This document shows positions 23,447-41,239 of a stretch of 64,000 nucleotides of DNA, one piece after another (the stretch's first letter is position 1; each line of letters starts with the position of its first letter). Source of the DNA: Nitrosomonas sp. sh817 (GTDB taxonomy: Bacteria; Pseudomonadota; Gammaproteobacteria; Burkholderiales; Nitrosomonadaceae); NCBI RefSeq assembly GCF_030908545.1, contig NZ_CP133083.1, forward strand, positions 682,001 to 746,000, in the 5' to 3' direction. The notes under the pieces were generated by a model that made no database searches, was not told the origin of the DNA, and saw nothing but the letters and a program-made list of their open reading frames with translations. The position numbers and the translations under genes are program-made.

Positions 23447-24136
23447 ATGCATATATTAATTATTGAAGATGATCTGGCGATTGCCGCCAATCTATATGAC
23501 TTTCTGGAATCAAGGGGGCATACGGTCGATGCTGCAGTGAATGGTGTTGCTGGTCTCCATCTGGCGGTTACGCAACGGTTTGATGCAATTTTGCTCGACT
23601 TGGGTTTGCCTGGAATGAACGGCATGACACTATGCCGTAAACTCAGGCAGGAATCACAAATCGACACACCCATTTTGATGCTGACTGCGCGCGATACGCT
23701 CGAAGATAAGCTGGCGGGTTTTGAACAGGGAGCCGACGATTATCTGATCAAGCCTTTTGCGTTGAAAGAAGTGGAAGCGCGTTTATTGGCATTGCATAAG
23801 CGGCATGCCGGAAAAGTAGCCAATCGCACGCTGGAGTTTGACAAGCTCTCTTTCGATCCGAAGACGCTGTCGATTCGCTTTGAGAACAAGAACGTCAAAC
23901 TTCCTCCCAAGTGTATCCGCTTATTGGCTTTGATGATGAGCGAACCGGGCCGGGTTTTCAGCCGCGAGGAACTGGAACTGGAAGCCTGGGAAGATGTTCA
24001 AGAAACCAGTGACACACTGCGTAGCCATATGCACATACTGCGGCGGGCATTGACCAAAGCGGGCGGATACGATCCGATAGAAACCGTGCATGGTCTCGGT
24101 TATTGTTTGACATCGCGTGTTCAGATTCCCGAATGA
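23447..24136 (+). CDS. Two-component response regulator, OmpR/PhoB family
   Basis: A 229-residue transcription regulator. The receiver domain (about 1-115) starts MHILIIEDDLAIAANLYDFL and has the phosphoacceptor aspartate in AILLDLGLPGMNG and the lysine in DYLIKPFAL. The C-terminal winged-helix DNA-binding domain (about 128-225) contains REELELEAWEDVQETSDTLRSHMHILRRAL and the YRLHG-like ETVHGLGYCL. The start at 23447 is used because the upstream extension overlaps hemE and is not receiver-like. It overlaps the kinase gene by 20 bp. The pair lies directly upstream of sbtA-sbtB, making bicarbonate uptake a possible target (inference). Confidence 0.92.
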   Translation: MHILIIEDDLAIAANLYDFLESRGHTVDAAVNGVAGLHLAVTQRFDAILLDLGLPGMNGMTLCRKLRQESQIDTPILMLTARDTLEDKLAGFEQGADDYLIKPFALKEVEARLLALHKRHAGKVANRTLEFDKLSFDPKTLSIRFENKNVKLPPKCIRLLALMMSEPGRVFSREELELEAWEDVQETSDTLRSHMHILRRALTKAGGYDPIETVHGLGYCLTSRVQIPE

Positions 24137-25391
24137 AAATAGTCTGCGCTACCGGGTTGCCGTAGCGCTGACAACTTTTAGCGTTTTTATCGTTGGAACG
24201 CTTTGTATTATTCTTTACTTTGTCTCGGATAATATCGAGGAAGAGCATATTGAGCAGGTGATCGAGATGGAAATGGATCATCTTGTTCAGCGCTATAAAA
24301 AGCACTCCGATTTTATCTACCAAGTCGGTTTGCATCTTAAAAGTTATGTTATTCATAACATCGATGACGAGTTGCAGATTCCAACGTATTTGCGCGGTTT
24401 GAATGCGGGATATCATCGGATTTACTATGGGCTGGAAGATTTTCACGTATTGGTGCGCACTGACCAGGGCGTGAAATTTCTTGTTGCCTACCGGATTGCG
24501 TTGCATCAGCAACGGTTAAGTAAATTAAGAGTGATCATCTTATTTTCCTGGTTTGCGGTGGTTGCCATCGCTTTTGTCGTCGGGTACTTGCTCGCCGGCG
24601 TGCTGGTCAAGCAAGTAACGGATCTGGCGGATCGTGTCAGTTCACTGGCAACAGAAGGCGATCAAACAGGCTTATTGACGCAACCGGATATGGACGAGGA
24701 AGTTGCGCAACTGGCGCAAGCCTTGGATGATTACCAAATCCGCATTAAACGAATGTTGCAGCGCGAGCAAGAGTTTACCGCCAATATCAGCCACGAATTA
24801 CGGACGCCGATTACTACCATTCTTACCAGTTGCGAGTTGCTGGTTGCTTCTGTTGATATACCGGCGCGAGCGCAACACCGGATAAAAATGATCGAAAGCG
24901 CGGCGACGCGCATGGGCGAGCAATTGCAAGCCTTGCTGTTCTTGGCGCGGGAGCAAGCGCTGGGCGCGACCGAGCCGATTGCGATTGCTGAATGCGTTTT
25001 CGATGCGGTTGAGCCGATTTGTACCGAAATTTACCGCAAAGGACTGGATTTCGAAGTCAATATCGCACCGTCTGTGACGATAGTACTGAACCGCCAAGCC
25101 TTGCATACCGCTCTGATGAACTTGCTGCGCAACGCAGTACAGTACACCGAGAGTGGTTTTATTCGTGTCGATTACAATAATCGCCGCTTATCCGTTACCG
25201 ACTCAGGTATCGGCATTGAACCGGCCTATCTGCCCTTACTGTATGAGCGTTTCTTTCGCGGCTCTGAGCAAGGCGAAGGCTTAGGAATCGGCTTGGCAAT
25301 CGTCAAGCGAATCTGCAATCACTACGGCTGGCGTATCGAAGTCGACAGCACCCCGGGCAAGGGTACGACTTTTCACATTATTTTCCCTTAA
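24117..25391 (+). CDS. Sensor histidine kinase with HAMP domain
   Basis: Membrane partner of the preceding regulator, 424 residues. Membrane segments are at about 12-36 and 137-160, around a periplasmic sensor of about 100 residues with no recognised ligand motif. HAMP follows at about 160-215, the phosphoacceptor SHELRTP box near residue 225, and the HATPase domain with LLRNAVQYTES (N box), DSGIGI (G1) and GLGIGLAIVKRI (G2). The start is a GTG inside the end of the regulator gene (20-bp overlap), indicating coupling. It belongs to the small-sensor group of OmpR-associated kinases. The signal is unknown. Confidence 0.9.
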   Translation: MFRFPNENSLRYRVAVALTTFSVFIVGTLCIILYFVSDNIEEEHIEQVIEMEMDHLVQRYKKHSDFIYQVGLHLKSYVIHNIDDELQIPTYLRGLNAGYHRIYYGLEDFHVLVRTDQGVKFLVAYRIALHQQRLSKLRVIILFSWFAVVAIAFVVGYLLAGVLVKQVTDLADRVSSLATEGDQTGLLTQPDMDEEVAQLAQALDDYQIRIKRMLQREQEFTANISHELRTPITTILTSCELLVASVDIPARAQHRIKMIESAATRMGEQLQALLFLAREQALGATEPIAIAECVFDAVEPICTEIYRKGLDFEVNIAPSVTIVLNRQALHTALMNLLRNAVQYTESGFIRVDYNNRRLSVTDSGIGIEPAYLPLLYERFFRGSEQGEGLGIGLAIVKRICNHYGWRIEVDSTPGKGTTFHIIFP

Positions 25392-25689
25392 TTTCTGAAG
25401 AAACACGCATCGTTCTCTTCACGAATTCTTCACGTTTCCTGTGTTAACGTTTCCGTGTGAAGGGTAATTCAGTCACGGGTTTCCAGGTATAAAACAGAGT
25501 GTTTTTCGTCGCCTGAATTTAACTAGGTAGTCACGTCTCGTAGAATTTTGATTCAAGAATTGAATTTCTCCATCAATTAGAGGGGGCATTTTTCTTTTTG
25601 CTTCGATTTCATCGAGACTCTGGAAGATACTGGAGTGAAAAATATTAATGAAACGGAATGGATATAACTATTAAAATAAGGAGTGTTGC
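25392..25689. promoter_or_regulatory. Upstream region of sbtAB with direct repeats
   Basis: About 300 bp between the kinase and sbtA. At 25418-25434 TTCACGAATTCTTCACG gives two TTCACG half-sites exactly 11 bp apart, the one-turn spacing typical of OmpR/PhoB-family binding sites. The second half-site also forms an imperfect inverted repeat with CGTGTGAAG at about 25454-25462, and GTTTCC occurs twice in between. No terminator was recognised. The sbtA Shine-Dalgarno is AAGGAG. Regulatory function is inference. Confidence 0.5.
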
Positions 25690-26646
25690 ATGGCTACTAT
25701 ACAACCAGTAGTGTTCTTTTTTGTTGCTGGGGTTTTGGCGGGCGTGATCAAGTCTGACCTGAAAATACCCGAAGCTTTGTACAAGAGTATGAGCTTGTTC
25801 TTGCTGATTGCCATTGGTTTCAAAGGCGGTGTGTCAATGGCGAAGTATGAAATCATGGAAGTATTACCAATTGCAGTTTCCATGGTGGTTTTATCGGCTT
25901 TGGTTCCATTAACCGCTTATCCGATTTTAAGATTCGTCGGTAAATTCACTCAGGCTGACGCCGGCGCCATTTCCGCGCACTATGGCTCGGTCAGCGCGGT
26001 GACCTTTGCCGTGGGTGTGGCTTTTCTGGCGGCGAAGGATGAGCCTTCTGAGGGCTATATGGTTTTGATTATGGCGCTGATGGAAATACCCGCGTTGGTA
26101 ACCGGTACAGTCCTGGCGCGCGCCGGTGCTGGCGGTGAAAAAACCCAATGGGGCAAGCTGATGCACGAGATTTTGACCGGTACCAGTCTTTATCTGTTAA
26201 TTGTGGGCGTTCTCATCGGGTACTATGCAGGGGTAGTAAAACTGGTGTCGCCATTGGATAAAATGTTCATGGACTTGTTCATGGGCGTATTGGCATTCTT
26301 CCTGCTGGAAATGGGATTGCTGGCATCGGCGCGGTTGAAGGCGGTTATGGCAAAAGGTGTTTTTATTGTGTCGTTCGGGATTTTGTTCCCGTTGATGGCT
26401 GGAATGTTTGGCGCTTATTTGGGCTGGATCTTCGGTCTGACTGAAGGCGGCACCATGCTGTTGGCGGTCTTGTATGCCAGCTGTTCATATATTGCTGCAC
26501 CGGCAGCTATGCGCATTGCAGTGCCGGATGCCGATCCTGCGGTTTCAATCGGCGCATCGCTGGGTGTGACATTCCCTTTCAATATCTTTATCGGGGTACC
26601 GATTTACTGGGAAATGGCGCACTGGTTCCATGGCATGGCAGTATAA
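25690..26646 (+). CDS. sbtA: Sodium-dependent bicarbonate transporter SbtA
   Basis: High-affinity Na+/HCO3- symporter of the SbtA (DUF897) family, 318 residues, inner membrane. It is almost entirely hydrophobic, with about ten membrane segments in two inverted halves. Conserved stretches include FKGGVSMAKYE in the first half, SAHYGSVSAVTFAVGVAFL around a helix break, and ASCSYIAAPAAMRIAVPDADPAVSIGASLGVTFPFNI near the C terminus. It is followed after 39 bp by a PII-like gene, the standard sbtA-sbtB pair of cyanobacteria and many autotrophs. In an ammonia oxidiser it would supply bicarbonate for CO2 fixation. Confidence 0.93.
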   Translation: MATIQPVVFFFVAGVLAGVIKSDLKIPEALYKSMSLFLLIAIGFKGGVSMAKYEIMEVLPIAVSMVVLSALVPLTAYPILRFVGKFTQADAGAISAHYGSVSAVTFAVGVAFLAAKDEPSEGYMVLIMALMEIPALVTGTVLARAGAGGEKTQWGKLMHEILTGTSLYLLIVGVLIGYYAGVVKLVSPLDKMFMDLFMGVLAFFLLEMGLLASARLKAVMAKGVFIVSFGILFPLMAGMFGAYLGWIFGLTEGGTMLLAVLYASCSYIAAPAAMRIAVPDADPAVSIGASLGVTFPFNIFIGVPIYWEMAHWFHGMAV

Positions 26647-26684
26647 TAAAGTACTTAATTAACCGGACAATTAATGGGGAAAAT

Positions 26685-27002
26685 ATGAATAATACGATTG
26701 CTATGAGACGATTTGAAATCGTTATCGGTATTGAGCAGCTTGAGCAACTGACGGATATATTGGAAAAATGTGAAGTACGTGGCTATACGGTACTTAAAAA
26801 TGCCGGCGGTTTGGGATCGCGTGGTGTGCGTGATCCGGATGATGTTTTGATGGAACAAGAGAACGTGATGGTTGTGCTTGCTTGCAAAGATGATCAGGCA
26901 CAGAGAATTGTCAACGAAGTTCGGCCGGTATTGAAAAAATTGGGTGGTATGTGCCTGATTTCGGATTGTCTGTGGCTTGAGGGACCGGCAGTCTCTTACT
27001 AA
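26685..27002 (+). CDS. sbtB: PII-like regulatory protein SbtB
   Basis: A 105-residue PII-superfamily protein expected to form trimers, bind adenyl nucleotides and act on the neighbouring SbtA transporter. It has the ferredoxin-like pattern (RFEIVIGIEQLEQLTDILEKCEVRGYTVLKNAGGLGSRG), a short variable loop (RDPDDVLMEQE), and VMVVLACKDDQAQRIVNEVRPVLKKLGGMCLISD. The C-terminal CGPxGC redox motif of some cyanobacterial SbtB proteins is absent; the chain ends LEGPAVSY. It is cotranscribed with sbtA and closed by a strong terminator. Confidence 0.88.
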   Translation: MNNTIAMRRFEIVIGIEQLEQLTDILEKCEVRGYTVLKNAGGLGSRGVRDPDDVLMEQENVMVVLACKDDQAQRIVNEVRPVLKKLGGMCLISDCLWLEGPAVSY

Positions 27003-33084: not shown

Positions 33085-33864
33085 ATGTCGCCCACCAGCT
33101 TTCCTTCCGCCATTGCTTCCCCGGCCACAACCATTGACGAAGTCATTACGCAATTAACCGCCATCGTCGAATGGTCAAAACAAAATAATTCCCGCATCGG
33201 CTACTTCGCCGCGCTGTACCGCAAAGTGACGATCCAGGTCAAGAAAGGCATTCAGGAAAATTATTTTGACGACGGTCCGCGCATGGAACGGCTCGATGTG
33301 ATTTTCGCTAATCGTTACATTCGCGCCTGTTATCTGCACTTTACCGATCAAACCCCGACCAAATCTTGGGTGCGGGCGTTTGACGCCACGCAACATTGGT
33401 GGCCGATCGTGTTGCAACATTTGTTACTGGGCATGAATGCGCACATCAATCTGGATCTCGGCATCGCCGCAGCGGAAACCATGCCGCCGGGAGAACTGCA
33501 AAACCTCAAGGGTGATTTCGACAAAATCAATGAAGTCCTGGCGGGTTTGGTCGGCGGCGTGCAAAGCGAATTGGCGCAGATCTGGCCGGTGCTGGGGTTG
33601 CTCAACCGCTTTCTGGGCTCGGTGCAAACCGCCATCATCAATTTCAGCATGGAAAAAGCCCGCGATGCCGCCTGGTCATTCGCGGAGAAGTTATCGCCGT
33701 TGCCGGGGCCGCAACGCCAACAGGCAATCCGGGAAAAAGACGAGATGATGGCATTGTTTTCCAACGTGATTTCTCATCCGGGGTTTTATGGCTCGTTCAT
33801 TACCGGCATCATCCGCTTGGGTGAACGTGGCACAACGCGTCAACGCATCGAAATTCTAGAGTGA
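33085..33864 (+). CDS. DUF5995 family protein of unknown function
   Basis: A 259-residue soluble, mostly helical protein. Family-like segments are TIDEVITQLTAIVEWSKQNNSRIGYFAALYRKVT near the N terminus, the W-rich ATQHWWPIVLQHLLLGMNAHINLDLGIAAAE core with a histidine and several acidic residues, and DAAWSFAEKL. No signal peptide or membrane segment is seen. The conserved histidine and acidic residues could suit a metal-dependent enzyme, but that is speculation. It is the last gene before the insertion sequences; whether it once belonged to the SulP locus is unknown. Confidence 0.75.
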   Translation: MSPTSFPSAIASPATTIDEVITQLTAIVEWSKQNNSRIGYFAALYRKVTIQVKKGIQENYFDDGPRMERLDVIFANRYIRACYLHFTDQTPTKSWVRAFDATQHWWPIVLQHLLLGMNAHINLDLGIAAAETMPPGELQNLKGDFDKINEVLAGLVGGVQSELAQIWPVLGLLNRFLGSVQTAIINFSMEKARDAAWSFAEKLSPLPGPQRQQAIREKDEMMALFSNVISHPGFYGSFITGIIRLGERGTTRQRIEILE

Positions 33865-34040
33865 TCTCAATTTAAATCCACCGATACATCATCTTTTTCG
33901 AAGGACATTGCGCCGGTTATCGCTGCTTTGATAGTACGCTGGGCTTATTGTCGTTGTGTTGAACAGGCTCAACATACTCATCTGTACCTCACAAAAATTT
34001 GACGTTGTATACGATACACTACTATCGAGTAAGGTGATTC

Positions 34041-35241
34041 TAGGGAAACACTGATCTATTCGATCAAATAGATAGACCTGCAAAGGTTAGATAAAATACC
34101 TTGCTATTGATAAACATGGAATAGAGCGATGCAATCAAGCTTTTCTGAGCTGGAATATGCGGCAAAGAAGAAACAAACCCGGCGTGATCGTTTTCTGGTT
34201 GAGATTGAAGCTGCAACACCGTGGACATCCCTGCTGAATGTTATAGCTCCGTATTATCCGGTTAGCGGTAGGCGAGGTCATCCACCGATTGGTTTGGAAC
34301 GGATGCTGAGGATGTATATTGTGCAACAGTGCTTTGGTTTTTCGGATGAAGGCGCGGAAGATGCTGTATACGACAGTCAAGCAATCCGCTGCTTTGTTGG
34401 TATTGATCTGAATCGGGAAGCAGTACCGGATGCGACGACTCTGCTGAGATTTCGCCATTTGCTGGAAGCGCATCATCTGACGGAATCCATTTTTGATGCA
34501 ATCAATGCACATTTGGCTGAACGCGGACTATTTCTTCGCGAAGGTACGATTGTTGATGCTACGCTGATCTCAGCGCCTCCTTCGACCAAGAATAGAGAAG
34601 GAAAACGCGATAGCGAAATGCATCAAACCAGGAAAGGCAAGCAGTGGCACTTCGGCATGAAGGTACACATCGGTGTCGATGCGCAATCAGGGCTTGTTCA
34701 TACCCTGATCGGAACGGCAGCCAATGTCCACGATGTTACTCAGGCACAGGCGCTGCTGCATGGTGATGAAACCGATGTATTTGGTGATGCGGGCTATCTG
34801 GGCGTTGAGAAACGAGAAGAGAATCTTGAATTGCCCGTAACCTGGCATATCGCGATGCGCCCTTCCAAGCGCAAGGCATTGCCCAAAACAACAGCAGGCG
34901 AACTGATGGAGAAGCTTGAACATGCAAAAGCCAGCATTCGTGCCAAAGTTGAGCATCCCTTTCATGTCGTAAAGAATCTGTTCATGCATCGCAAAACTCG
35001 CTACAAAGGAATGGCCAAAAATAATGCTCAGATGTTTTCACTGTTTGGGCTTGCCAACTTGCTGCTGGCTCGCCGGTGGTTATGTAGCTCTGACAGCCAG
35101 ATTGCGTCTTAAAGACAAGAAATGAGCGGAATAAGGCAAGAAATAACGCAATTCAACCCAGAATATGGCAAATTTTAACCCAATATCCCAGAACTGCTCG
35201 CTTTGCCCTTGGGGTGTGGCGAATTAATCAGCGTTTCCCTA
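34041..35241 (+). mobile_element. Complete IS5-family insertion sequence
   Basis: About 1.2 kb with inverted ends: left GGGAAACACTGATCTATTCG, right (complement) GGGAAACGCTGATTAATTCG. CTAG is present at both boundaries (34040-34043 and 35239-35242), matching the YTAR 4-bp duplication of the IS5 group. It encloses one intact transposase gene. It interrupts the leader of the first SulP gene; joining the flanks restores a continuous sequence through one CTAG. Confidence 0.88.
34129..35112 (+). CDS. IS5-family transposase
   Basis: An intact 327-residue DDE transposase. It begins SSFSELEYAAKKKQTRRDRFL and has the IS5-type N-terminal domain (RRGHPPIGLERMLRMYIVQQCFGFSDEG). First catalytic Asp: GTIVDATLI. 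Second: VFGDAGYLG. Catalytic Glu: RAKVEHPFHVVK, near residue 283. No frameshift is seen, so it may be active. It is the likely source of activity for the MITE-like elements with matching ends elsewhere in the window. Confidence 0.93.
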   Translation: MQSSFSELEYAAKKKQTRRDRFLVEIEAATPWTSLLNVIAPYYPVSGRRGHPPIGLERMLRMYIVQQCFGFSDEGAEDAVYDSQAIRCFVGIDLNREAVPDATTLLRFRHLLEAHHLTESIFDAINAHLAERGLFLREGTIVDATLISAPPSTKNREGKRDSEMHQTRKGKQWHFGMKVHIGVDAQSGLVHTLIGTAANVHDVTQAQALLHGDETDVFGDAGYLGVEKREENLELPVTWHIAMRPSKRKALPKTTAGELMEKLEHAKASIRAKVEHPFHVVKNLFMHRKTRYKGMAKNNAQMFSLFGLANLLLARRWLCSSDSQIAS

Positions 35242-35333
35242 GAGAAATTCTTGCATGGCGCTTCAGCATCTCGTCTTGGATATACAGCCATGCCATTGTT
35301 CACTGATATTCGTCGAATTAGGGGGGGGCAGTT

Positions 35334-36450
35334 TATAGACCCGGCCAATAAATAGTTTGAACTTTGAGTGATATTGCATGCCCATAGAAGAATGGAGAAA
35401 ATAGATGCAAGAACCTTAAAGGATGAAGCGCTGCATGAACGGCGGCGGCAAGTGATTCGTCTTTACAAGCGAGGCAGCACTTCTGTGCAAATAGCGCAAA
35501 TAACGGAACTGAGCGACACGGCTGTGAAGAAGATTATTCGACTTTATGAAACAGCTGGCGCAGCTGGACTAAAACCTGGTAGACGGGGACGAAGCGTGGG
35601 TGACAAGCGCAGCCTCAGCGAAGAGCAGGAGTTGAGATTGCAACGGCTTATTTGCGATAAGCGTCCTGAGCAACTGAAGATGGATTTTGCATTGTGGAAT
35701 CGTGGCGCGGTGAGTCAGTTAATCCAGCAGGAATGTGGCCTATCCATGCCGATACGTACGGTGGGGCACTACCTTAAACGATGGGGGTTTACCCCGCAGA
35801 AGCCGATCCGGCGTGCTTACGAACAACGCCCGGAAGCGGTAAAGCAATGGCTCAATGAGCAATACCCGGAGATAGCCAGACGCGCTCGAACTGAAGGCGG
35901 TGAAATTCACTGGGGTGATGAAACAGCACTAGTCAACACGGATGTGCGAGGACGTGGTTTTGCACCCAAGGGAAAAACGCCGGTAGCCTATGCGCCTGGT
36001 ACACGACAACGACTGTCAATGATTGCCACAGTGACAAACAAAGGTTGTGCACGGTGGCAGATTATCGATGGCAATTTCAATTCGGATCGGCTCATTGAGT
36101 TTTTTGAGCTTCTGATCAAAGATACGGAGAAAAAAGTGTTCTTGATCCTGGATAATTTGAGAGTACACCACAGCAAACCAGTAAAGGCTTGGCTGGAAGA
36201 AAATAAGGAAAAAATCGAATGCTTTTATTTGCCCAGCTACAGTCCGGAATTAAATCCAGAAGAGCGATTAAATTCAGATTTGAAACAGGCTATCGGTTCT
36301 AAAGTGCCGACGCGTACCAAGGAAAAATTGCGTAACGCTGCCAACGATCACATGACGATGCTGGAGAACAATCCAGAGCGTGTTGCTTCTTACTTCCAAG
36401 ATCCATATGTAAAATATGCCGCTTAAAACTATTTAATGGCCGGATCAATA
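35334..36450 (+). mobile_element. Complete IS630-family insertion sequence
   Basis: About 1.1 kb. The ends are imperfect inverted repeats: left TAGACCCGGCCAATAAATAG, right (complement) TTGATCCGGCCATTAAATAG, continuing into TTT. TA lies at both boundaries (35334-35335 and 36449-36450), the usual IS630/Tc1 target duplication. The right-hand TA provides the A of the ATG of the SulP gene at 36450. The left flank ends in AGGGGGGGGCAGTT, so the element separates that gene's ribosome-binding site from its start codon. Confidence 0.87.
35392..36426 (+). CDS. IS630-family transposase
   Basis: An intact transposase of about 344 residues from the ATG at 35392; a GTG at 35368 would add eight. The N-terminal helix-turn-helix region is RRQVIRLYKRGSTSVQIAQITELSDTAVKKIIRLY. 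The DDE catalytic triad is visible in IHWGDETALVN, FLILDNLRVHHSK and SYSPELNPEERLNSDLK. It resembles the single-frame IS630 group rather than the frameshifted ones. Confidence 0.92.
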   Translation: MEKIDARTLKDEALHERRRQVIRLYKRGSTSVQIAQITELSDTAVKKIIRLYETAGAAGLKPGRRGRSVGDKRSLSEEQELRLQRLICDKRPEQLKMDFALWNRGAVSQLIQQECGLSMPIRTVGHYLKRWGFTPQKPIRRAYEQRPEAVKQWLNEQYPEIARRARTEGGEIHWGDETALVNTDVRGRGFAPKGKTPVAYAPGTRQRLSMIATVTNKGCARWQIIDGNFNSDRLIEFFELLIKDTEKKVFLILDNLRVHHSKPVKAWLEENKEKIECFYLPSYSPELNPEERLNSDLKQAIGSKVPTRTKEKLRNAANDHMTMLENNPERVASYFQDPYVKYAA

Positions 36451-37784
36451 TGAAATCACAGATGGACGATAAGCAAGCATCGGGCGTTACGCAGGATGCG
36501 GCTGTTCCAGCCGGTTCCGCTGCTTTTCAAGCGCAGTACTTTTTCCGGGATACCGCTGCGGGTCTGATAACCGGCGCGATGGCGATCCCGCTGACGATCG
36601 GTATTGCGATTATGTCCGATTATCCGATCAAGGTCGGGCTGGCGACGGTTGCGTTTGCTTGCCTGGTGGGATGGATAAATGCCTGGATAAAGCCGGGTAA
36701 TTATATCGGCGCCCCGGGCATCGCTGCGGGCTTAGCGCCGGTGCTGGCGTTGGGTGTGGCTACATTTGGCTGGGAGAATATGGCATTTTGTATTTTTCTG
36801 ACGGCGATAATGCAAGCGATTATTTGGAAATTCAATTGGCAACGGTATCTGCTGGTTGCGGTTCCGGTTTATTTGGTCGAAGGTTTGCTGGCCGGCGTGG
36901 GGTTGAAAATATTATTGAAGTTCTCCGAATTTACTTACGAAATTCCAGAGGCTGCGGTCACCGAAGAATTTTGGAACGGCGCGCGTATGCAAATGGTCGG
37001 CATTTCCGCGGCGGGCCTTGCAGTATTTTTATTCCTGTTTTTCAAGTTTAAAGATACGCAACCAGCCGTTCCTTACTTTGCGTTGATTATCGGTGGTGCC
37101 GTGCTGGCGCAATTTGTCAGTGTGCCCATGATTTACGCCGAAGATGTCGATCTTTATTTGAAATTGCCATTGCCGCAAGCGGATGTGACGGTGATGATGA
37201 TGGTTTATATGGTGCTTTTCTGTGCCATGCTGGCTATCGTCGACGTGATCGAACAAGTCATGAGTAACGCTGCCATTGAAAAAATTGACCCGTTGGGACG
37301 TAAGACCAATAGCAATAACAGCTTGTTGGCCATCTGGATCGCCAATCTGGGTTCGAGCTTTTTCCATGGCATGACCAATCTGGATGGTTTGGCTAAAAGC
37401 ACCACGAATAAGCTGGCTGGTGCAATGACCAAGTTTTCCGTTCTGATTATCGGATTGGTGGTCTGCTTATTCACATTCAATCCACACTTTTTAAGTTATT
37501 TGCCCAAGTTTGCCCTGGCGGCAATCATGATGTTCACCGGCTACAAAATGATTGCAGGTCTGGTGCATGTCACGCACTACGGTACCTATGCATTGATGCT
37601 GGCGCTGCTAACCGGAGGCCTGGTTTATAAAGTCGGTATTTTTGAAGGATTGCTGATCGCGATGACATTTCACGGCATCATTCACTTCATGGTGTATACC
37701 AAGCACGATCATTTGCCGGGTAAGGCCGTCGTCAAACGTTACTTTGAAAATCTGAAGAAAGACAGCAACAGCAATCTTCAATAG
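36450..37784 (+). CDS. SulP family inorganic anion transporter without STAS domain (copy 1)
   Basis: Inner-membrane transporter of 444 residues, nearly all hydrophobic. The SulP core is clear from RDTAAGLITGAMAIPLTIGIAIMSDYPI and IGAPGIAAGLAPVLALGV at the N side and from ANLGSSFFHGMTNLDGLAKSTTNKLAGA later on. The usual C-terminal STAS domain is missing; the chain ends in a short charged tail. SulP members move bicarbonate, sulfate or dicarboxylates. The carbonic anhydrase gene close by favours bicarbonate (inference). Copy 2 at 39.95 kb is a close paralogue. The ATG overlaps the IS630 target site and no Shine-Dalgarno lies between the IS end and the ATG, so expression may be weakened. A second ATG lies at 36462. 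Confidence 0.88.
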   Translation: MKSQMDDKQASGVTQDAAVPAGSAAFQAQYFFRDTAAGLITGAMAIPLTIGIAIMSDYPIKVGLATVAFACLVGWINAWIKPGNYIGAPGIAAGLAPVLALGVATFGWENMAFCIFLTAIMQAIIWKFNWQRYLLVAVPVYLVEGLLAGVGLKILLKFSEFTYEIPEAAVTEEFWNGARMQMVGISAAGLAVFLFLFFKFKDTQPAVPYFALIIGGAVLAQFVSVPMIYAEDVDLYLKLPLPQADVTVMMMVYMVLFCAMLAIVDVIEQVMSNAAIEKIDPLGRKTNSNNSLLAIWIANLGSSFFHGMTNLDGLAKSTTNKLAGAMTKFSVLIIGLVVCLFTFNPHFLSYLPKFALAAIMMFTGYKMIAGLVHVTHYGTYALMLALLTGGLVYKVGIFEGLLIAMTFHGIIHFMVYTKHDHLPGKAVVKRYFENLKKDSNSNLQ

Positions 37785-37885
37785 CGATTTCTCGATGATT
37801 TTTAGATAAAGCAGTTGTGTCAGGAAAGGTGGATCACGAAGGCATTAATCCGGGGGATGCCCGGTATTTTTAACAAGGACATTTT

Positions 37886-38287
37886 ATGTACCAGAAAATA
37901 ATGATTGCTGTTGATGGTGGTGAAGCCTCCCGTCAGGCATTGGCGAAATCCGCCGATATTGCGAAAATGAATAACGCGGCAATCTGTATTGTTCATTGCG
38001 TGAAAGGCGATAACAAAATCGATGAACAAACGGGTGCGAAAATACTTAAAGAAGCCCGGTCATGTCTCGGCGATTTGAGCGCCCAAACCCGGCTTTTGAA
38101 TGCTGAAGCCGAATACGGCTCAAATGGAATTGCTGAAGTGATTGCCGTAGCGGCAGAGGAGTGGGGGGCCGATTTGCTGGTAGCTGGTGCCAGCAATCGA
38201 AGTAAATTGGAACGTTTCGTGAAAGGCTCGATCGCCGAACAGTTAGCCGCCAGAGTGAAATTTTCAGTGCTGCTGGTTCGCCCGTAA
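37886..38287 (+). CDS. Universal stress protein, UspA family
   Basis: A 133-residue Usp-fold protein: YQKIMIAVDGGEASRQALAKSADIAK at the N terminus and the nucleotide-binding signature AGASNRSKLERFVKGSIAEQLAARVKFSVLLVRP (G-x2-S/N...G-S) at the C terminus. Usp proteins bind ATP or signal stress and energy state; the specific role is unknown. It follows the first SulP gene by about 100 bp with a clear ACAAGGA Shine-Dalgarno. Usp genes beside anion transporters are common, suggesting a regulatory or accessory role, but this is association only. Confidence 0.9.
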   Translation: MYQKIMIAVDGGEASRQALAKSADIAKMNNAAICIVHCVKGDNKIDEQTGAKILKEARSCLGDLSAQTRLLNAEAEYGSNGIAEVIAVAAEEWGADLLVAGASNRSKLERFVKGSIAEQLAARVKFSVLLVRP

Positions 38288-38713
38288 AAATTCTACCGGA
38301 GAAGCCGGGCAATCGTGTCAAATGTCTGGCGGCAAAGAGTCGGGCTATATTCGTGATTATCCGGAAAGTCTGGAATTTCACCCGGCAAGCGGTGGGGCCG
38401 GTCACCGCAGCGGCATGGGCTTTTTCCTGATCCGGGATCGATTGGCGTAAGCTACTGCGTGTATTGAATAATACCTGATATCAGTGAGGAAAATTGCAAC
38501 ATCACCTGGCAGAAAATAGAGAATTACTGTCTGTAACATCGAAAAGTAGTGTTAGAATCCCAATGCCGGGTTTATTTTTATCGCGCTAGAAGATTGATAA
38601 ATCGATGAAAAAGACCTAGGTAATGTTTGCCATTCCCTTGAGTTACTTTGAATATGGCAAGTTTGAGATAGAACTTATGATGAAATGACTAATTACTACA
38701 AAGGATATCTAAA
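38288..38713. other. Intergenic region before the carbonic anhydrase gene
   Basis: About 425 bp. No open frame with coding character, no terminator with a T-run and no RNA gene were recognised. A TTAGAAT -10-like sequence near 38552 and the AAAGGATATC Shine-Dalgarno at the end suggest that the carbonic anhydrase gene has its own promoter. Confidence 0.5.
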
Positions 38714-39715
38714 ATGTTTGAAAGTTTAAAAAATCTGTTAAAACATTTTACAGGCAGTCAAGATACAGCATCATCAGCACCAGAAACGAACCCGCCTCCA
38801 CAACAACCACCAGTAGCTTCAACAACCGTTTCAACCGCTTCCGTCCCGGAAGAAAGCCTCAATCAGTATCTTTCGCTAGCGCAATTCAACCTGGGTCTGG
38901 GCAGCATCGGTCCCGACAATCGCGATGATATCGACAAGAATGTATTAATCCAGATGTATCAAGCGATTGCCGCCGGTGTATTCAACGTGCCTGCAAATGG
39001 CGTGGTGCCGGAAATCTGTGTCGATGGCCGCACCAAAGCCGATGGTTCGCGTTTCAGCGCGCCGTGTGCGGCGGGTGGCACTTTGAGCATCGTGTATGGC
39101 AGCGATCTGGGCGGCTCATCCGCCGGAGACGTGAACGAGTTGCAATTGACGACACAAGCGATTCATGCGCTCAAATCGAAAGGGCATTCCACCGGCGTGC
39201 ACGGCGATGACCACGGATCTTGCGGATGCGGCGCGTGTGCCAAAGCGCCGACGATTTATCAGCACGTCTCGGAACGTATCAACGATATCGCCGCGCTGGT
39301 CGGAAAGCTCGGCATTAACGTGACCGATGCGGAGAAAGGCTCGATTGTGCAGCAAGCCAACAATCGCCTGGGGCAGGCAGGCTTTTTCGCCGAAGACCGG
39401 GCTGCGGTGCTGCAAACGGCGCAGGATTGCGGAGCGCTCTTTGAAGAACTGGTCGGCAAGCACAACGAACTCGGCATCGCATTGAACACCAAGCCCGGCA
39501 CCACCGTGGATCGCGCTGCGATTCGCGCCAAGTATGGCCCGCAATACGATATATTCGTGGTCGATGCTTGGGCATTCGGCAATGCGGCTAAAGATATCAA
39601 TACCACCGGCAGCGATGACGACATTCAACGTATCGCGAAAGCCATTACCATTCAGAATGTTGCCACAGCTTCGATTCTTGGTCATGGCTCATTGCGGATT
39701 ATTCCCATTGCTTAA
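38714..39715 (+). CDS. Zeta-class (cadmium-type) carbonic anhydrase homologue
   Basis: Likely interconverts CO2 and bicarbonate. The 333-residue protein resembles one repeat of the diatom enzyme CDCA1. ICVDGR (Cys 102, Asp 104, Arg 106) matches its CVDGR metal-ligand and Asp-Arg dyad. KGHSTGVHGDDHGSCGCGAC supplies His 163 and a cysteine (probably 172; 170 and 175 are nearby) like CDCA1's SKGH-x2-SVHGD...GCG. FVVDAWAF and the TASILGHGSLRIIPIA ending match its C-terminal part. Residues 15-50 are a Pro/Ser/Thr linker and no signal peptide is seen, so it is probably cytosolic. It sits between two SulP genes. Metal (Cd, Zn or Co) and activity are not known. A beta-class enzyme is less likely, because the conserved segments fit CDCA better. 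Confidence 0.8.
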   Translation: MFESLKNLLKHFTGSQDTASSAPETNPPPQQPPVASTTVSTASVPEESLNQYLSLAQFNLGLGSIGPDNRDDIDKNVLIQMYQAIAAGVFNVPANGVVPEICVDGRTKADGSRFSAPCAAGGTLSIVYGSDLGGSSAGDVNELQLTTQAIHALKSKGHSTGVHGDDHGSCGCGACAKAPTIYQHVSERINDIAALVGKLGINVTDAEKGSIVQQANNRLGQAGFFAEDRAAVLQTAQDCGALFEELVGKHNELGIALNTKPGTTVDRAAIRAKYGPQYDIFVVDAWAFGNAAKDINTTGSDDDIQRIAKAITIQNVATASILGHGSLRIIPIA

Positions 39716-39946: not shown

Positions 39947-41239
39947 ATGTCGCAGAACACGCAAAACCCATCGACCGGCCCGGCTGCCTTCCAATCGCGA
40001 TTTTTTGTGCGCGACCTGCAAGCCGGCATCATCACCGGAACCATGGCGATCCCGCTATCCGCCGGGATTGCATTGATGTCCGATTATCCGATCAAGGTAG
40101 CCTTGGCAACCGTCGTGTTCGCATGCTTCGTCGGCTGGATCAATGCCTGGTTCCGTCCCGGGAATTATGTCGGTGCTCCCGGCGTCGCCGCCGGCTTGGC
40201 GCCGGTGCTGGCATTGGGCGTGGCAACGTTCGGCATGGAAAATATGGCGTTTGTCATTTTTATGACGGCTTTGATGCAGGCCATTATCTGGAAATTTAAT
40301 TTGCAGAAGTACATTCTGGTCGCCGTTCCGGAATATCTGGTTGAGGGATTGTTGGCCGGCGTCGGGCTGAAAATCGCCATCAATTTTTTTACCATGACTT
40401 ACGAAATACCGGACAGCCTGGTTACGGAAAGCTTCTGGAACGCTGCGCGCATCCAAATGGTGTCGATCTCGCTGCTGGGGATGGTTGCATTCGTGTTTCT
40501 CTTCAGTAAATTCCAGTCCAGGCAACCTGCCATTCCGTATTTCTTCCTGATGGTTGCCGGTGCGATTCTGGCGCAGTTTATCGCGATGCCGATGCTGCAC
40601 GTGGAAGATGTGCCGTTGCAGTTATCGCTGCCGTTGCCGCGTTTCGACCATGCGCTGATGTGGTTGTATGTTTTGGGATTTGCGGTCATGCTGGCGGTGA
40701 TTGATGTGATTGAGCAAGTCATGAGTAATGCCGCCATCCAAAAAATCGATCCGTTGCAGCGCAAATGCAATACCAATAACAGTTTGCTGGCGATCTGGGT
40801 TGCCAACATGGGGTCGAGTTTTTTCGGCGGCATGACAAATCTGGATGGATTGGCCAAAAGCACCACCAATAAACTGGCCGGCGCCTATACCAAATTCTCG
40901 GTGCTAGTGGTCGGATTGGTAGTTTTATTTTTTGTGATCAATACGCAATATCTTGAATTTCTGCCGAAATTTTCGCTGGCGGTGATCATGATTTTCACCG
41001 GCTGGAAGATGATTCTGGGGTTATTGCATGTTGCGCATCAGGGGCAGTATGCATTGATGCTGGCGACGTTGTGCGCGTTACTGGTTTACCGCCTGGGGAT
41101 TTTCGAAGGATTGCTGCTGGCGCTGGCTATCCACGGGTTTGTGAACTTTGTGGTGCTGTATTATGTGCATAATGTGAAATCCGGCGCGATCATCAGGAAA
41201 TATTTGCAGCGCTTTTCCATCGGGGGCGGCGCCGATTAA
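39947..41239 (+). CDS. SulP family inorganic anion transporter without STAS domain (copy 2)
   Basis: A 430-residue paralogue of the transporter at 36.45 kb, matching it along its length (for example RDLQAGIITGTMAIPLSAGIALMSDYPIK, NAWFRPGNYVGAPG and FGGMTNLDGLAKSTTNKLAGA). It likewise has no STAS domain. It lies 231 bp after the carbonic anhydrase gene with its own possible promoter and the FNR-like palindrome. The C-terminal codons and the TAA stop (41237-41239) run into an IS5/MITE-type terminal repeat, so the last residues (about GGGAD) may not be ancestral. Bicarbonate is the favoured substrate by context; sulfate cannot be excluded. Confidence 0.88.
   Translation: MSQNTQNPSTGPAAFQSRFFVRDLQAGIITGTMAIPLSAGIALMSDYPIKVALATVVFACFVGWINAWFRPGNYVGAPGVAAGLAPVLALGVATFGMENMAFVIFMTALMQAIIWKFNLQKYILVAVPEYLVEGLLAGVGLKIAINFFTMTYEIPDSLVTESFWNAARIQMVSISLLGMVAFVFLFSKFQSRQPAIPYFFLMVAGAILAQFIAMPMLHVEDVPLQLSLPLPRFDHALMWLYVLGFAVMLAVIDVIEQVMSNAAIQKIDPLQRKCNTNNSLLAIWVANMGSSFFGGMTNLDGLAKSTTNKLAGAYTKFSVLVVGLVVLFFVINTQYLEFLPKFSLAVIMIFTGWKMILGLLHVAHQGQYALMLATLCALLVYRLGIFEGLLLALAIHGFVNFVVLYYVHNVKSGAIIRKYLQRFSIGGGAD

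Follow-up and report, generated by a model that had tools for sequence, protein, structure and literature searches.

Organization of the locus

The window (the whole stretch of 64,000 nucleotides that was analyzed) belongs to a Nitrosomonas genome of 3.15 Mb in two contigs. An uninterrupted ORF with an ATG start encodes a protein of 333 amino acids that resembles the cadmium carbonic anhydrase CDCA1 of the diatom Thalassiosira weissflogii. The gene order around it is SulP1, Usp, CDCA, SulP2, and an SbtA/SbtB-type gene pair lies 12 kb away. The features are listed in table 1.

Table 1. Features of the carbonic anhydrase locus (positions in the window).
Feature	Position	Strand	Basis or remark
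SbtA-family bicarbonate transporter, 318 aa	25690..26646	+	PF05982, E 6.5e-107; 70% identical to SbtA of L078
P-II-like (SbtB-like) protein, directly 3' of SbtA	26685..27002	+	PF00543, E 2.8e-12; 63% identical to that of L078
SulP-family transporter 1 (SulP1), 444 aa	36450..37784	+	PF00916, E 1.5e-22; 65% identical to SulP2
Universal stress protein (Usp)	37886..38287	+	PF00582, E 5.9e-22
Zeta-type (CDCA-like) carbonic anhydrase gene, 333 aa	38714..39715	+	ORF; PF18484; comparison with CDCA1-R1
Amphipathic N-terminal peptide MFESLKNLLKHFTG, residues 1-14	38714..38755	+	identical in 17/17 rows of alignment A1
Pro/Ser/Thr-rich linker, residues 15-51, length species-dependent	38756..38866	+	
PF18484 match, residues 91-297	38984..39604	+	Pfam, one stretch
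Cys102, first predicted metal ligand, in CVDGR	39017..39019	+	aligned with CVDGR of CDCA1; invariant 30/30
His163, second predicted ligand	39200..39202	+	PF18484 position 64 = CDCA1 His; invariant 30/30
Cys170, extra cysteine	39221..39223	+	aligned to Leu of CDCA1; invariant 30/30
Cys172, third predicted ligand	39227..39229	+	PF18484 position 74 = GCG Cys of CDCA1; 30/30
Cys175, extra cysteine, ligand Cys +3 residues	39236..39238	+	Phe in CDCA1-R1; invariant 30/30
SulP-family transporter 2 (SulP2), next downstream gene	39947..41239	+	PF00916, E 8.8e-25

Assignment to the zeta class

The protein matched the Pfam family PF18484 ("Cadmium carbonic anhydrase repeat") with 150.9 bits against a cut-off of 29.2 (E 3.9e-44). 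The direct match to repeat R1 of CDCA1 (CDCA1-R1; 3bob) was weak (E 0.0029, and 0.1 with profile A2), and a profile-profile comparison with the same repeat gave a probability of 93.6 (E 2.1e-7) over the CVDGR, HGD..CG and H-N/T-E segments and the VDAW/VDGW end. No NCBIfam model matched at E 1e-5. Among the Pfam matches, the beta-class family PF00484 was absent at E up to 1, as was the CsoSCA family PF08936, which is also missing from the window genome. The initial annotation, made from the sequence alone, had called the protein CDCA-like, with one domain in place of the tandem repeats of the diatom enzyme, and both points were borne out by these matches and by the single PF18484 stretch. The tandem repeats are regarded as a trait of CDCA1 and not as defining the class, because a single CDCA1 repeat is active (PMC4413181).

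As to the two-lobe CDCA fold, AlphaFold2 models had mean pLDDT values of 48.4 (full length) and 41.0 (domain only), which are too low for geometry, probably because the alignment contained 17 similar sequences. A fold search with the full-length model returned zero matches at E 0.001.

Predicted metal ligands and their spacing

To locate the ligands, the PF18484 profile was aligned with truncated pieces of the window protein and of CDCA1-R1. Profile position 64 was reached by the window piece with His163 as its last residue, position 74 by the CDCA1 piece ending in its GCG cysteine, and position 75 by two pieces, the window one cut after Gly173 and the CDCA1-R1 one cut after the final Gly of GCG. 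The profile alignment with CDCA1-R1 set HGDDHGS-CGCG over HGDHSSDMLGCG, and since the two approaches agree, Cys172 is predicted to be the CDCA1-type ligand. By sequence, Cys102, His163 and Cys172 occupy the CDCA1 positions of the Cys-His-Cys set of the zeta class, which we take to be Cys53, His105 and Cys115 in CDCA1 numbering, consistent with the loop 107-115 that PMC4413181 names. Replacement by Ala in silico cost 4.5, 3.9 and 6.1 bits, respectively, against PF18484. The Asp and Arg of CVDGR, which presumably have a catalytic role in the zeta class, are present, and CVDGR was found in 30/30 homologues.

The spacings Cys-His, His-Cys and Cys-His (the latter His in NELGIA) are 61, 9 and 78 in the window protein, 61 or 62, 9 and 78 over the 30 homologue rows, and 52, 10 and 44 in CDCA1-R1. 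Relative to CDCA1, nine residues are added between Cys and His and 34 after the ligand Cys. In the alignment, the larger change is thus the 34-residue insertion, not the one-residue-shorter loop to which the initial annotation had drawn attention.

That annotation had also placed three cysteines (170, 172 and 175) in an unusual metal site; these numbers and the motif VHGDDHGSCGCGAC proved exact, and the complete set of cysteines in the protein is 102, 118, 170, 172, 175 and 239. The proposed departure from the CDCA1 site stood as far as the spacing is concerned (His163 to Cys172 is 9, against 10 in CDCA1-R1), with the qualification that Cys172 alone covers the CDCA1 ligand in the profile mapping.

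Conservation of Cys170 and Cys175

The 47 CDCA loci (L001-L047) were reduced to 30 distinct proteins, all from the single genus Nitrosomonas; the set leaves out L048 and the small upstream ORFs described below. The pattern VHGD.H..CGCGAC with the same spacing was found in all 30, which makes a chance feature of one protein an insufficient account of it. Positions 102, 170, 172 and 175 are Cys in every row, whereas Cys118 is present in 19/30 and Cys239 in 9/30, and each remaining cysteine position is occupied in 1 to 3 rows. For each of the three loop cysteines, some genomes use TGC and others TGT, indicating that silent changes are tolerated; replacements were not seen. Pairwise identity in the domain falls to 57%. 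Since 103 of the 282 columns of the domain do not vary within this one-genus set, the invariance of two cysteine columns by itself says little.

Constancy of the two extra cysteines, raised as a question by the initial annotation, therefore holds for the Nitrosomonas-type proteins (30/30) but not for CDCA1, where Leu and Phe stand at positions 170 and 175 in each of the repeats R1-R3. Because the diatom enzyme lacks both, Cys170 and Cys175 are, judged by alignment, additions to the basic zeta-CA site that it does not require. The PF18484 profile scored Leu170 (+0.3 bits) and Phe175 (-0.7 bits) nearly equal to Cys, while Ala cost 2.5 bits at position 170 and 3.2 bits at position 175. As the profile accepts Leu and Phe about as well as Cys, its seed appears to hold both diatom-type and CGCGAC-type members.

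N-terminal peptide, linker and upstream region

The N-terminal peptide has a hydrophobic moment of 0.80, a value matched by 10 of 10000 shuffles. The DNA pattern coding for it was found at 24 sites in 22 of the 125 family genomes, and eight more distant genomes have different N-terminal starts that are nevertheless amphipathic. From residue 15 to the start of a conserved LxxFxLG motif, the length varied between 15 and 50 residues over the 30 rows. The linker had been noted before as rich in Pro, Ser and Thr and as lacking a signal peptide; residues 15-54 indeed contain 20 P/S/T of 40, and by eye the N-terminus has no signal-peptide-like hydrophobic run. The peptide probably serves in tethering or targeting. 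Targeting to carboxysomes is not favored, because none of the six CsoSCA genomes has a PF18484 gene (Fisher p 0.086 within the genus).

Two of the peptide sites (in G028 and G063) are additional to the carbonic anhydrase gene and belong to small ORFs upstream of it (L034 2260-2508, 82 aa; L036 8001-8282, 93 aa). Apart from the MFESLKNLLKHFTG peptide, these contain only a tail rich in Pro, Ser, Thr and Glu, and the upstream region is duplicated. The 80 bases 5' of the start codon (window about 38636-38713) are well conserved in the window, in 14 loci and at the two small ORFs, with segments such as CTTTGAATATGGCAAGT and TACAAAGGATA, which suggests a shared promoter or 5' element.

Distribution and other carbonic anhydrases

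PF18484 was detected in 30 of the 125 family genomes, all of one genus (30/85 in that genus). All 16 loci with named relatives were from Nitrosomonas, and the cultured species among the matches include N. ureae Nm13 and N. supralitoralis. In the phylum, order and class samples, which overlap, 3/398, 7/399 and 2/369 genomes gave a match. Only two of these matches were outside the genus and both were treated as false: L048 (29.5 bits against the cut-off of 29.2) lies inside an ORF that by eye reads as an amidohydrolase, and L089 (20.1 bits) is under the cut-off. Plasmids, phages and viral contigs gave no PF18484 match.

The other carbonic anhydrase families searched were alpha-CA (PF00194), beta-CA (PF00484), CsoSCA and PF08332; they were present in 98, 99, 6 and 6 of the 125 family genomes, respectively. 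The window genome has one beta-CA and one alpha-CA besides the zeta-type gene. Four PF18484-bearing genomes (G026, G028, G045 and G063; completeness 90, 66, 99 and 99) had no member of the four families. A general role of the zeta-type enzyme as sole carbonic anhydrase was rejected, since most bearers have a beta- or alpha-CA and the gene was not significantly commoner in genomes without beta-CA (Fisher p 0.59), without alpha-CA (0.40) or without the two of them (0.71). Five other members of the genus lack alpha-CA, beta-CA and PF18484, so the absence of a known carbonic anhydrase does not prove a need for this one. Two genus members about 99% complete (G021 and G073) lack all four families as well as PF18484, and may use a gamma-CA or an undescribed enzyme.

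Gene neighborhood

Neighborhoods were compared in 27 distinct genomes (26 represented by loci, plus the window), several stretches ending at contig ends. SulP2 lies downstream of the gene on the same strand in nine, the window included. SbtA was found in the examined stretch of three others: in L078, SbtA and P-II are directly upstream of the zeta-type gene on the same strand, and in L075 and L080 the SbtA/P-II pair is 4.5-7.5 kb away, L080 also having a SulP remnant beside the gene. In the remaining 15 of 27, neither SulP nor SbtA was near the gene within these stretches, several of which end at contig ends.

SbtA of L078 matched a solved SbtA (E 2e-24), and its P-II neighbor matched P-II entries including 5d4n (E 2e-4), which we take to be a carboxysome-associated, bicarbonate-binding P-II. 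No solved relative of SulP2 was found at E 0.001, and both SulP1 and SulP2 are below the NCBIfam sulfate permease cut-off. SulP1 and SulP2 may well carry bicarbonate; SulP and SbtA transporters of bicarbonate in autotrophic Proteobacteria are described in PMC10880623.

In the window, a sensor histidine kinase gene directly precedes the SbtA and P-II-like genes (24117-27002), which could place the uptake of bicarbonate under the control of a two-component system. In a near-identical relative (L032), the window block 33862-38474 (two transposase genes, SulP1 and Usp) is replaced by other sequence, and because the block is missing there, SulP1-Usp seems to have come to lie beside the gene recently, by gain or rearrangement.

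Interpretation

The protein is best explained as a cytosolic, single-domain carbonic anhydrase of the zeta type that serves the uptake of inorganic carbon and has thiols in the loop where metal is exchanged, a reading to which we assign a probability of about 0.6. Homology, ligand mapping, conservation, spacing and gene neighborhood were shown by the analysis; the activity, the metal, the role of the extra thiols, the tethering and the direction of the reaction are inferred. Cys102, His163 and Cys172 would hold one Zn or Cd ion, with Asp104 and Arg106 of CVDGR beside it as in CDCA1. The enzyme would interconvert CO2 and the bicarbonate imported by the SulP- and SbtA-type transporters, and CO2 could thus be supplied to carbon fixation. 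The predicted ligand Cys172 has Cys170 and Cys175 on either side of it, in the loop whose CDCA1 counterpart shifts on metal binding and release. The most likely role of these two cysteines is that of second-shell or alternative thiol ligands in the capture, retention or transfer of the metal. Disulfides are unlikely in a cytosolic protein. With the flexible linker behind it, the amphipathic peptide probably serves to tether the enzyme to a membrane or a partner protein.

The two extra cysteines could instead be neutral, inherited from the ancestor of the genus and unchanged since because the whole domain evolves slowly. The restriction of the homologues to one genus, the 103 invariant columns and the near-equal profile scores of Leu170 and Phe175 are in keeping with this; the variability of Cys118 and Cys239, the purely silent changes in the loop Cys codons and the domain identities down to 57% speak against it, and we consider it unlikely. 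Somewhat less likely still is a second metal ion, bound beside the catalytic one of a zeta-type carbonic anhydrase by Cys170 and Cys175 and perhaps by the invariant His167. All three residues are invariant (30/30) and CxCxxC is a common metal-binding pattern, but the loop would have to be rearranged to bring three ligands so near the first site, and the passages on CDCA1 in PMC4413181 offer no precedent for a second site in that enzyme.

The least probable alternative is that the protein is not a carbonic anhydrase and reuses the CDCA fold for cytosolic metal binding, buffering or sensing. Its cysteine-rich loop, the changes of +9 and +34 residues relative to CDCA1 and the other carbonic anhydrases in most gene-bearing genomes would fit such a protein. 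However, all 30 homologues keep the three ligands together with Asp and Arg in CVDGR, the neighbors are likely transporters of inorganic carbon and not of metal, and in four genomes the search of the carbonic anhydrase families brought up no other member.

A bolder extension of the zeta-type carbonic anhydrase reading, which we hold to be improbable and about as doubtful as this last alternative, is that the CGCGAC loop of the bacterial zeta-CA branch is a metal trap. Cys170 and Cys175, with His167, would either take up a second metal ion or take turns with Cys172, and the supply of metal (under Zn, Cd or Cu stress) would thereby switch the CO2 supply of the ammonia oxidizer on or off, the N-terminal peptide tethering the enzyme at the bicarbonate transporters.

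Cadmium carbonic anhydrase is the textbook example of an enzyme with a use for cadmium. A single-domain relative in cultured Nitrosomonas provides a bacterial system for probing the choice between Zn and Cd, with natural genomes available in which the families searched yielded no second carbonic anhydrase, and it suggests how carboxysome-free nitrifiers deal with inorganic carbon. New in the current study are the conserved amphipathic N-terminal peptide, which in two genomes is also carried by itself on a small gene upstream, the 34-residue insertion following the metal loop, the four relatives with the zeta-type enzyme as sole carbonic anhydrase among the families searched, and neighbors that look like bicarbonate transporters. 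A title and abstract search of the open-licence literature found no paper on a Nitrosomonas zeta-CA, which is weak evidence of absence. The occurrence of bacterial zeta-CA is already in print at survey level, since such genes are mentioned in a survey of finished bacterial and archaeal genomes (PMC10880623). A 2015 review places CDCA homologues only in diatoms (PMC4413181).

Comparison with known systems

The protein shares with CDCA1 (PDB 3bob, 3boh and 3uk8) the PF18484 family, CVDGR, the positions of the His and GCG-Cys ligands and a colinear second half ending in VDAW/VDGW. It differs in having one domain where CDCA1 has three repeats, a His-Cys spacing of 9 in place of 10, Cys170 and Cys175 at positions where CDCA1 has Leu and Phe, the additions of 9 (Cys-His) and 34 residues (after the ligand Cys), and the N-terminal peptide with its linker. 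In CDCA1, loss of the metal shifts the two ligand cysteines and region 107-115 to give a stable open form, which explains the easy exchange of metal (PMC4413181). The equivalent region of the Nitrosomonas protein is one residue shorter and has gained one thiol, with another just after it.

Beta-class carbonic anhydrases (PF00484) have an Asp-Arg pair at the metal site. This pair and the Cys-His-Cys metal site are shared by the window protein as a functional analogy, but PF00484 is absent from it and a separate beta-CA gene is present in the same genome. According to PMC4413181, a CDCA1 repeat mimics a beta-CA dimer. CsoSCA (PF08936) likewise serves autotrophic carbon fixation; it belongs to a different Pfam family and did not co-occur with PF18484 in any of the 125 family genomes. 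No report pairing SbtA/SbtB or SulP with a zeta-CA was found by title or abstract in the open-licence literature. The known uptake systems of the SbtA/SbtB and SulP (BicA-type) kinds find their likeness here in the SbtA and P-II-like genes that adjoin the zeta-CA gene in L078 and in the SulP gene that adjoins it in the window.
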